DNA of 64,000 nucleotides from Bauldia litoralis (GTDB lineage: Bacteria; Pseudomonadota; Alphaproteobacteria; Rhizobiales; Kaistiaceae), in contig NZ_FMXQ01000002.1 of NCBI RefSeq assembly GCF_900104485.1, forward strand, positions 186,001-250,000, read 5' to 3'. Below the pieces are notes generated by a model. It saw only the letters and a program-made list of their open reading frames with translations. It was not told the origin of the DNA and ran no database searches. The position numbers and the translations under genes are program-made. Of the stretch, positions 36,920 through 41,687 are shown piece by piece; the stretch's first letter is position 1, and the number at the start of each line of letters is the position of its first letter.

Positions 36920-38113
36920 TCAGAGAACGAAATCGTTGTCGTGAAGCGTGTGGATCCCATCAAGTTTGATCGCCAGATCAGTCTTGCCGTCGCCGTTCTT
37001 GTCGACGTAAACGGCGGTAAAATCCTTCTTGGCTTTTGTCTTGTACCGAACTTCCGGGTCGCCGTCGTCGTGGAATTTCTTCTTTCCGATGAAATCGAAT
37101 TTGGTTTTTGACAGTTTGCTTATGTCGATCTTGTCCTTCTTGTCCCAGTCTCCGATAACGTCGGCGTCCTTCAATTTCTTTGAAGAGGAACTGTTCTTGG
37201 CAAAAACGAACTTGTCCCGCGATATGGAAACCGCAAGGAGGCCGGTATCGGTCCCGTCCTGATCGCCGAACAGGATATCGAATCCGTTATTCGCGATCAG
37301 CTTATCCTTGCCGGCGGATCCGAACAGGATGTTGTCGGCGTTCTTCAGCGCCTTGAGCGTGTCCTTTCCCTCGGTCCCGAGGACCTCGTTGACAATCCCG
37401 GTAAGGCTCAGGGAACTCCCCTTGATGTTCGAGACGAAGATACCGGAATCGTAGAGGGAATCCCCGGTGTCAGCGATAGCGATCTTGATGTCGTTCACGC
37501 CTGGCTTGACTTCGGCGATAACCTTCAGCTTCTTGCTGAGACCATCATATTCAATCGTGATCCCACCCCCCGTATTGTCCTGGAAGTAAGCGACGTTGTT
37601 GTCGAGGACACTGAGCGGGCTGTCGGCGTTTCCACCAAACAGCGCAACGTTCTTGCCGTTCACGAAGATTGCGGCGATATCGACGAATGTGGAGCTTGAG
37701 AATTCCGGATACTCGTCCGATCCGAACACCACTTCGAACGAAACTGACTTGACCCCGGCTGCGGCCATGATCTGGAATTCGAGAATCGATGCGTCGCGGG
37801 TCGACCCTGCGCCCGGAAACGCATTCTGGACTTCCGTGTTCAACTGCGTATCGCCGTTTTCTCCGGTCGAGAGCGTGTAGCTACTTGAAGTATTGATCAA
37901 TGCCGGCGAGCCATCGCCACTGGTCAACAGGATTCCCTTGTTGCTGACGACCGCTTGTCCGAGGTTAAGGTTGTCGAAGAAGGACGATGATTGCGGCCTC
38001 CCCGTATATTTTGCCGAGCCGTTGACGTAGCTGATCCCGGAGGGCGAAACAAAAAGCGCCTTCGCCAGCAAGTCATCGTTGCCACCGGTATATTCAGTGA
38101 ACGCGTTGGTCAT
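36920..38113 (-). CDS. Probable type I secreted protein: choice-of-anchor L-like domain plus RTX-like C-terminus
   Basis: A 397-residue protein without an N-terminal signal peptide. Residues about 10-230 resemble the choice-of-anchor L domain (SSFFDNLNLGQAVVSNKGILLTSG, EVVFGSDEYPEF at 128-138). Degenerate calcium-binding nonapeptide-like repeats follow (LGTEGKDTL, LFGSAGKDKL, LFGDQDGTDTG at about 245-291), then DADVIGDWDKKDKIDIS, DKNGDGKTDL and a hydrophobic C-terminal DFVL, typical of proteins exported by ABC type I systems. Base composition is lower in GC than neighbours and the upstream gap is AT-rich, suggesting acquisition or silencing. GGGAGG lies eight bases before the ATG. No type I transporter gene is in the window. 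Function likely adhesion or surface display. Confidence 0.8.
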   Translation of the reverse strand: MTNAFTEYTGGNDDLLAKALFVSPSGISYVNGSAKYTGRPQSSSFFDNLNLGQAVVSNKGILLTSGDGSPALINTSSSYTLSTGENGDTQLNTEVQNAFPGAGSTRDASILEFQIMAAAGVKSVSFEVVFGSDEYPEFSSSTFVDIAAIFVNGKNVALFGGNADSPLSVLDNNVAYFQDNTGGGITIEYDGLSKKLKVIAEVKPGVNDIKIAIADTGDSLYDSGIFVSNIKGSSLSLTGIVNEVLGTEGKDTLKALKNADNILFGSAGKDKLIANNGFDILFGDQDGTDTGLLAVSISRDKFVFAKNSSSSKKLKDADVIGDWDKKDKIDISKLSKTKFDFIGKKKFHDDGDPEVRYKTKAKKDFTAVYVDKNGDGKTDLAIKLDGIHTLHDNDFVL

Positions 38114-38287
38114 CGTCCAAGCCTCCCTGTTGATGCACCGTTCCGGCGATGGATCAAGATCGGCCAAATGGCAGCGGCACCGCCGAATTGCGTTGGAACC
38201 CAACACCGGACCAAAAAAAGGCGATCTCGGGTGTTTCAGTTATTCTATTTTTACACAACTTTTTAATCACTATGGCGCTTAAGACAA

Positions 38288-39789: not shown

Positions 39790-41490
39790 TCAGCCGGCCG
39801 GCGCCCGCATCGCCGCTGCCACCACCGCCGGGGGCGGCAGCGTTGCGTAGCGCTGAAGATACTGGTGGACGAAGGCGATGGCCATGCTGCCTTCGCCGAC
39901 CGCGGCGGCGACGCGCTTGACGGGTCCGAGCCGGACGTCGCCGCAGGCGAAGAAGCCGGGGACACTGGTTTCCAGCAGGTATGGGTCGCGGTCCTGCGAC
40001 CAGCGGCCCGCCTTGACCAGGTCCTCGCCGGTCAGCACGAAGCCGCGCGGATCGCGCGCGATTTCCGCCGGAAGCCAGCCGGTCTCGGCATCGGCGCCGA
40101 TGAAGACGAAGAGACCGCCACACGCCTCGCGGCGAACGTCGCCGGTGGCGCGGTCGACTAGATCGATGCTCGTCAGGTGGTCGTCGCCATCGACGCCCCG
40201 GACCTCGGTTTGCAGGGCGACCCGGATGTTGGTCTTTCCCTGGATCTGGTCGATCAGGTAGCGCGACATGCTCTTTTCGAGGGAGTCGCCCCGGACCACC
40301 AGAGTTACGGTCGCGGCGTGGTTGGCGAAGAACATGGCGGCCTGGCCGGCCGAGTTGCCGGCGCCGATCAGGTGGATGTCGAGGCCCTGGGTGACGCCGG
40401 CCTCGCTGCGGGCGGCGCCGTAGTAGATGCCCTTGCCGATCAGCCGGTCGAAACCGTCGATGGTCATCCGGCGCCAACTGACGCCGGTGGCGAGGATGAC
40501 GGTACGGCCGTGGATGACGTCGCCGCCGTCGAGCGTGATGGAACGCGCGTCGGTATCGATGGCATCGATCGTCCGGGTGATCAGGATCTCGGCGCCCAGC
40601 CGCCTTGCCTGGCGGAGGGCGCGGCTCGCCAGTTCATGGCCGGAAATTCCGCTCGGGAAGCCGAGGTAGTTCTCGATCCGCGACGAGGTGCCGGCCTGTC
40701 CGCCCGGCGCTTCGCGCTCGACCACCAGCGTGCGCAGGCCCTCGGAGGCGCCGTAGACGGCGGCGGCGAGGCCGGCGGGGCCACCGCCGACGATGACGGT
40801 GTCGTATTCCTCCAAACGCGGGTTTGTCGTCAGGCCGAGGCGGGTGGCGACCTCGCGCGGCCGTGGCTTGACCAGCAACGAACCATCGGTGAGGCGCAGC
40901 ACCGGCAGGTCTTCCTCCGCCACGGGCGGACCCTGCCAGCGGGCGGCGAAATCGGGCGCGTCCGAGGGGAGGGAATCGAAGACGATCTGGTTGCTGGCAA
41001 GGAAATGGCGCAGCGCAAGGCAGGCAGCGTCCCAGCGGTGGCCGACGATGGTTACCTGAGCCGGATGCGGTTCGGCGGCGATGCCGCGGAGGCCGCCAAG
41101 CCGCTCGCGGGCGAGGTCGCCGACCGCCTTCGTGATCTCCGGCGACGTGTCCGCGATGGCATGGAACTGGCGGGAACTGACCTTCATCACCCGCGTCGGC
41201 CCCGCGGCGCGACCGCCGGCCTGGAAGGGACTGCCATACATCAGCGGGATCTCGCCGTGCATCTTGCCGGCCGCGCGCTCGCCGATCTTGCGCTCGATGC
41301 CGTCGACCAGCTTCATCACGTCGAGCGTGCCTGAGAGCACAAGCAGGAACGACGGTTCCTCGCCTTCGTGGACGACATATTCGCCGTCGCCGAGGCGAAT
41401 ATCGGCGGCAACCTGCGCGAGTTGGGCGAGATCGGACGGCTGGAGCGTCGCGAAAAGGGGAATGGCGGCGAGTTCTTCAACCGTGATCAT
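39790..41490 (-). CDS. Cyclic nucleotide-binding/thioredoxin-reductase-like flavoprotein fusion
   Basis: A 566-residue three-part protein. Residues 10-115 are a cyclic-nucleotide-binding fold ([46 protein letters not shown]). Residues about 145-220 look like a degenerate glutaredoxin/thioredoxin fold ([19 protein letters not shown]) with a single Cys. Residues 228-560 are a low-molecular-weight thioredoxin-reductase-like flavoprotein with FAD and NAD(P)H dinucleotide sites ([32 protein letters not shown]) and FFACGDVR. The redox CxxC of true thioredoxin reductases is missing at the expected place between these sites. It may act as a cAMP/cGMP-gated or redox sensor or reductase. ATG 41490 is preferred; an ATG at 41511 adds seven residues. 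Divergent from kdsA. Confidence 0.88.
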
Positions 41491-41687
41491 GGCCTTGCGA
41501 TCCGCCCTCAAGCGGTCGACGCGCCACCGGCAGGCCGCAATCGACCGAACCTCGCTTCATCAGATCGCGCGCAAAGTGCACCTGTTTCGCGAAATTGGCG
41601 ACAGGAATCTGCTGGCGCGAGCCCGGCCTAGGAAGGAGGCGACAAGGCGCTTTCCCTTTGCCCGGCGATCCGTATGATCCCGCCATC

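Follow-up and report, generated by a model that had tools for sequence, protein, structure and literature searches.

A cyclic nucleotide-binding domain joined to a thioredoxin reductase-like flavoprotein lacking the redox-active CxxC in Bauldia litoralis

In AhpF, a thioredoxin-superfamily domain precedes the thioredoxin reductase (TrxR)-like core, and the TrxR-type ferredoxin-NADP reductases possess a TrxR-like body without the CxxC. Two-component systems with enzyme outputs are likewise a recognised class. The combination of a cyclic nucleotide-binding (CNB) domain with a TrxR-like flavoprotein is not a new architecture, since a RefSeq family name, "cyclic nucleotide-binding domain-containing thioredoxin-disulfide reductase" (e.g., WP_095423187.1), already exists for the group; the protein described here is 64.8% identical to a Paraburkholderia protein carrying that thioredoxin-disulfide reductase name. 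One biochemical paper on a relative was found in the open-licence PMC literature. ATII-TrxR, consisting of CNB and FAD/NAD(P) domains in the same arrangement of CNB and TrxR-like parts as the present protein, was reported there to be active in the presence of NADPH towards DTNB, with a kcat of 5.63 per s, and towards thioredoxin, with 28.4 per s (PMC6544261). The Cys pairs named by its authors were modelled ones, and neither "mutant" nor "mutagenesis" occurs in the main text (PMC6544261). Within the same open-licence literature, nothing was found on the pairing of a CNB-kinase with a receiver-fused flavoprotein, on a family-wide loss of both redox centres and a missing phosphate-binding arginine, or on any activity measurement for the group of close homologues designated group A below.

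Gene and domain layout

The gene lies in a window (the whole stretch of 64,000 nucleotides analysed, from contig NZ_FMXQ01000002.1 of B. litoralis) within a minus-strand reading frame at 39790-41511, which is open from a TTG at 41511 to the stop at 39790 and encodes 573 amino acids. The ATG at 41490, which is residue 8 when counting from the TTG as is done throughout, is the likely start, its column being at least 90% conserved in alignment A1; the whole gene from this ATG, stop codon included, would then occupy 39790-41490 on the minus strand. Pfam placed cNMP_binding (PF00027) at residues 40-122 (E 2e-12, over the cut-off) and Pyr_redox_2 (PF07992) at residues 236-541 (E 2e-34), and the AlphaFold model of the whole protein returned a mean pLDDT of 86.6 and a pTM of 0.72. 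The chain is accordingly laid out as a cNMP-binding-like (CNB) sensor domain at residues 8-146 (41074-41490, minus strand; PF00027 and a match to PKA RII-beta), a glutaredoxin-fold domain without its nucleophilic Cys at residues 150-226 (40834-41064, minus strand; model, structure and profile matches) and a TrxR-like FAD/NAD(P)H flavoprotein core at residues 236-555 (39847-40806, minus strand; PF07992 and superposition on 5mh4). A first-pass annotation, made from the sequence alone, had proposed a CRP-type N-terminal sensor domain and intact FAD and NAD(P)H sites, and both proposals hold good, the former through the PF00027 match and the CNB fold, the latter through the Rossmann motifs and the TrxR fold.

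For the family-wide comparison, 111 rows were aligned, comprising the window protein, a paralogue (L022), 80 loci from named genomes and 29 loci from genomes of the order. The first three together constitute the close group A (82 rows) and the last the distant group B (29 rows); the records from which the 80 close relatives were collected are labelled with at least seven phyla. An explanation by chance or artefact was rejected, PF00027 and PF07992 both being matched in 55 of 55 members of A1, which were collected by similarity to the window protein, and a 68%-identical paralogue being present in the same genome. This paralogue (L022/L184, G000:C16:25936-27603) shares the CNB and core of the window protein and is found some 198 kb away on the same contig, with a Na+/H+ exchanger gene immediately in front of it and, one gene on, a GAF-GGDEF-EAL gene. 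A member of 429 residues in another genome (L029, genome G036) has the core by Pfam and neither a CNB nor a receiver domain.

The two thiol centres

The core superposes on thioredoxin reductase 5mh4 with a Z of 33.9 and an rmsd of 2.2 over 300 aligned residues. Where the TrxR of the same genome reads C-A-T-C-D, the window protein reads G365-A-A-R-S, the codons of Gly365-Ala-Ala-Arg368 being aligned with the CxxC place at 40408-40419 on the minus strand. A loss private to the window gene was rejected, as the CxxC is absent from the flavoprotein part of all 111 aligned family members; the sole two CxxC strings among the rows, those of the trimmed L059 and L104, fall at residues 7 and 8. The place is occupied by Gly, Ala or Trp at 365, Ala at 366 (111/111), Ala, Ser, Thr or Gly at 367 and Glu or Asp at 370, preceded by Tyr364 in 109 of the 111; group A shows G-A-A/S, mostly R, one of S/T/N/G and then E or D, with Gly365 in all 82 rows. 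R407, M415-S416, Y418 and K532-R533 are invariant throughout the 111 and, R407 excepted, differ from the own-genome TrxR, in whose HRRD stretch the second Arg corresponds to a Gly of the window protein.

The second candidate for a thiol centre was the middle domain, which the first-pass annotation had described as a glutaredoxin-like fold with a single Cys. Pfam matched no family to it at E 1. Nonetheless, residues 138-230 folded alone gave a model with a pLDDT of 82.8, for which Foldseek returned mycoredoxin Mrx1 (2lqo) first (E 6.1e-4, the sole match below 0.001), and VIA-align placed thioredoxin-like and glutaredoxin chains on top, the best row being the thioredoxin-like BC3987 (Z 10.3, rmsd 2.5, 76 aligned). 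A 55-row profile of the domain likewise matched Mrx1 2lqo at E 1e-7. The Glutaredoxin family of Pfam is weakly matched in two of 55 members and exceeds its cut-off in the receiver-fused homologue L176. The proposed fold was therefore borne out by model, Foldseek, VIA-align and profile. In the profile alignment, W-D-A-A-C falls onto W-C-G-Y-C of Mrx1, which assigns the nucleophile position to Asp161 and makes the Cys already pointed out, Cys164 (codon at 41020-41022, minus strand; column counts and profile alignment), the former resolving Cys. The Asp161 column of group A contains D in 70 rows, E in 5, N in 4, S in 2 and G in 1 and no Cys in any of the 82, and none was seen there in the 29 rows of group B. 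Cys164 itself is kept in 64 of 82 rows of group A and in none of the 29 of group B, so that its conservation stands for most close members and fails for the distant ones; lacking general conservation, it does not qualify as an obligatory redox centre, and its candidacy as such is weakened.

With both centres gone, the question becomes whether other cysteines could serve. A full-length member of group A, L111 from the isolate genome of Microbacterium sp. cf046, contains no Cys in its 553 residues, and L114, L117, L122 and L123 contain one each. The existence of a full-length Cys-free member means that a thiol relay cannot be the mechanism shared by group A; as read from the sequences, dithiol exchange within the protein cannot be the common chemistry of that group. 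The earlier claims of a flavoprotein without CxxC and of an electron path unlike that of thioredoxin reductase are thereby supported.

It could still be argued that the family, in line with the claim made for ATII-TrxR, comprises true disulfide reductases operating through non-canonical cysteines or through direct flavin-disulfide chemistry, and the activity on DTNB and thioredoxin reported for that relative is a point in favour (PMC6544261). A homologue from Cupriavidus (L183; 39% identity with the window protein) adds to this case, for it has two Cys 17 residues apart, like Cys206-Cys223 of ATII-TrxR, and a third which, counted from that pair, comes at 375, to be compared with Cys376 (PMC6544261). 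Judged by this spacing, ATII-TrxR probably belongs with the distant group, in which the Cys positions are other ones. Column 374 holds a Cys in 28 of the 29 rows of group B and in one of the 82 of group A, and column 202 in 15 of the 82, so the window's group mostly lacks these columns. Given also the Cys-free member and the main text of the ATII-TrxR article, which describes no mutagenesis (PMC6544261), a disulfide reductase of this kind is regarded as quite unlikely.

The CNB domain and its exchange

CNB domains of the ligand-binding type are defined by the Glu and the Arg of the phosphate-binding cassette, and in PKA the cassette Arg contacts and holds the cyclic phosphate. The best PDB sequence match of the window's CNB is PKA RII-beta (E 3e-13), with an alignment that runs ungapped through the cassette (residues 86-102; 41206-41256, minus strand) and sets Phe96 against the PKA Arg. 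The cassette Gly-Glu is present in 81 of the 82 rows of group A, the remaining row being a fragment, and neither Arg nor Lys occurs at cassette positions 8 to 13 in any of the 82, His being found there in three. Of the two pocket residues on whose conservation the first-pass annotation had staked its proposal of a nucleotide-gated protein, the Glu thus stands and the Arg does not. As judged from these residues, the pocket of the window CNB is not of the classical kind, and the absence of a phosphate-binding Arg from all close members makes gating by cAMP or cGMP doubtful, leaving the nucleotide-gated claim unsupported. Some features speak for it all the same, namely the retained CNB fold with its Gly-Glu, four matches in the window genome to PF00211, the family of class III nucleotide cyclases, by which cyclic nucleotides may exist in the cell, and an Arg lying two places (16/29) or one place (5/29) before the canonical position in 21 of the 29 rows of group B, whose CNB may bind cyclic nucleotides on account of this shifted Arg. 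Set against these are the 0/82 count in the close group and the CNB domains of 11 kinases encoded beside receiver-fused homologues, which show no Arg in the Phe96 column either, and the gating of the window protein by cAMP or cGMP is considered improbable.

Other homologues carry a different domain in the CNB's place. Among the matches listed from a plasmid tblastn search with the window protein, H33 and H36 were matched only from residue 152/153 on, and one of them, L140 of Deinococcus aetherius, has a receiver (REC) domain instead of the CNB. A search with the L140 protein gave 12 plasmid records at 80% coverage or more, the query included. Ten of these, with at least 53% identity and a full-length match to P0002, were taken as the REC-type sample, H53 and H99 (about 39%) being left out; the receiver was confirmed by Pfam in all five of the ten that were scanned. 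The next gene encodes a CNB-histidine kinase (PF00027 and PF02518, i.e., CNB and HATPase_c) in nine of the ten loci, from Deinococcus (L140), Nostoc (L176), Streptomyces (L177), Tsukamurella (L178), Caballeronia (L179), Gloeothece (L182), Nocardia (L139), Paraburkholderia (L180) and Nonomuraea (L181). The exception is Nostoc edaphicum (L175), in which a transposase gene comes next and a REC-HATPase kinase farther on. When the Gloeothece kinase was searched against five of the ten records as a whole, its own among them, all six full-length matches lay within 4 kb of the flavoprotein, so that the pairing is a specific one. An H-box-like HELNNP or HEMNNP is found in six of the 11 kinases, the compared stretch of the other five ending before it. 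That the kinase CNBs belong to the subfamily of the fused CNB was borne out only in part, five of 11 scoring above three unrelated own-genome CNBs used as controls (the best at 55.5 bits) and six not.

Several side observations concern the surroundings of the REC-type genes. CNB-kinase genes flank the flavoprotein on both sides in L179, L180 and plasmid NZ_AP026561.1 (W05), by which two sensors may feed one output. On the cyanobacterial plasmids (L175, L176 and L182), the flavoprotein gene follows glgX and an AGE-family epimerase gene, in an order identical in Nostoc and Gloeothece, and a gene for a "low temperature requirement protein A" is found downstream, near the operon, in both Deinococcus (L140) and Nostoc (L176).

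In a tree of the cores, the REC members take a position intermediate between the CNB groups, the distant one and that of the window. The bootstrap of this tree is unsettled and its TrxR outgroup branch very long; L030, L072, L104, L111, L116 and L117, lost to the motif filter, and ten near-copies were left out of it. The position suggests an exchange of the sensor, and the REC members may be of one origin. Taken with the gene order, the family reads like one system in two arrangements, with the CNB either fused to the flavoprotein or carried by a kinase that would act on a fused receiver. Control by a signalling domain as such, the other half of the gating claim, finds support in this exchange of REC and CNB and in the CNB-kinase operon. 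No full-length CNB-kinase was found in the window genome.

The exchange also bears on the proposition that the protein is a redox sensor without turnover, in which the state of FAD and NAD(P)H would be the input and the CNB or the glutaredoxin domain the output surface. Such a role would accommodate an intact cofactor fold stripped of its known catalytic thiols, as well as a CNB pocket devoid of the phosphate Arg. With a receiver standing in the CNB's place beside a CNB-kinase gene, however, the N-terminus has the look of an input, and catalysis would fit equally with the strict conservation seen at many core positions; a sensor of this type is held to be unlikely.

Candidate partners, proposed function and comparison with known systems

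The immediate surroundings of the window gene offered little towards a partner. Upstream lies a divergent gene for an enzyme of the DAHP_synth_1 family, and three same-strand ORFs downstream gave no Pfam match at E 0.001. When ORFs around the 80 homologous loci were clustered, no neighbour family (families in at least five loci being considered) exceeded 14 loci once those clusters had been set aside in which the example ORF, by its coordinates, overlaps the gene itself, whether in frame, out of frame or antisense. No operon partner therefore emerged from either the downstream ORFs or the clustering. Elsewhere in the window, a 428-amino-acid ORF at 36920-38206 (minus strand), likewise without a Pfam match at E 0.001, has a C-terminal part that is Gly/Asp-rich by eye.

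In several other lineages, a gene for a UBP-type zinc finger (zf-UBP) protein adjoins the flavoprotein. Its motif pattern was found near eight of the 29 loci of group B, for which the flanks were short, and near three of the 80 of group A. Among 199 genomes of the order, 14 zf-UBP matches exceed the cut-off and a fifteenth falls below it; 13 of the 14 belong to the 32 genomes in which the flavoprotein is matched at E 1e-70 or better (hypergeometric P 5e-11, a value that is only a guide as the genomes are related), and in nine of the 14 the two genes are at most 904 bp apart. The zinc finger protein is the best candidate partner in these lineages; none was found in the window genome, so it is not a universal one.

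The explanation leaned towards, with slightly better than even confidence, is that of a sensor-controlled NAD(P)H:FAD oxidoreductase which has kept the TrxR/AhpF body, lost the dithiol relay and adopted a thiol-free electron path. NAD(P)H would reduce the FAD in the TrxR-like core, as the intact fold and motifs suggest. With the flavin-side CxxC and the glutaredoxin nucleophile both missing, the electrons would have to leave the flavin directly, passing to a partner or a small acceptor and bypassing protein thiols, and the glutaredoxin-fold domain, set between sensor and core, would have a structural or docking role. The N-terminal CNB would set the activity through its conformation, responding to a ligand or contact that, given the missing cassette Arg, is probably something other than a classical cyclic nucleotide; this control by a sensor is proposed on the strength of the gene architecture. 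In the homologues with split control, gene order and domains point to the adjoining CNB-histidine kinase as the enzyme that would phosphorylate the receiver replacing the CNB. Weighing against the thiol-free, sensor-controlled oxidoreductase are the reduction of DTNB and thioredoxin reported for the relative ATII-TrxR (PMC6544261), the Cys that group B shares in column 374 (28/29), the lack of any neighbour family in more than 14 of the 80 loci, the scarcity of the zinc finger string in the close loci (3/80) and the absence of both the zinc finger protein and a full-length CNB-kinase from the window genome.

A wider proposal can be offered tentatively, namely that signal-controlled flavoenzymes form a family whose thiol-free TrxR-like core might be switched by a fused, non-classical CNB or, via a receiver, by a CNB-histidine kinase, and might serve a dedicated partner such as the UBP-type zinc finger protein.

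In relation to the described systems, the present protein shares with TrxB the fold and the FAD and NAD(P)H Rossmann motifs and differs in lacking the CxxC, with a TIGR01292 score of 213.6 against a cut-off of 343.45. Two AhpF chains, 4o5q and 4xvg, are the best Foldseek matches of the whole protein, their large rmsd values (20 and 17) being due to a different domain arrangement; the window protein has one glutaredoxin-type domain, no redox CxxC and an additional CNB, and scores 160.2 bits in TIGR03140, for which the cut-off is 502.9. The score for YpdA, the bacillithiol disulfide reductase (TIGR04018), is 51.9, with a cut-off of 339.9. Mycoredoxin and glutaredoxin share the fold of the middle domain, in which an Asp takes the position of the nucleophilic Cys. 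FNR2 (8c16), a ferredoxin-NADP reductase of the TrxR type, aligns with a VIA Z of 28.6 and an rmsd of 3.1 over 303 residues, at a sequence identity of 22%, below the TrxR rows.

The activity implied by the RefSeq name calls for cysteines that are missing from the window's group, and thioredoxin-disulfide reductase is likely the wrong name for the family. Annotated members bear it even though the TrxR Cys pair is gone in all those aligned, and redox inventories relying on it are probably wrong for these members. Ordinary as an annotation, the family is notable as a signalling flavoprotein system open to experiment, as the fused and split arrangements make both the switching signal and the destination of the electrons directly testable. 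Two-component systems with enzyme outputs resemble the REC homologues with their adjoining kinase gene; here a CNB domain is the sensor of the kinase and a TrxR-like flavoprotein the output, by which a flavoenzyme would join the outputs of that class.
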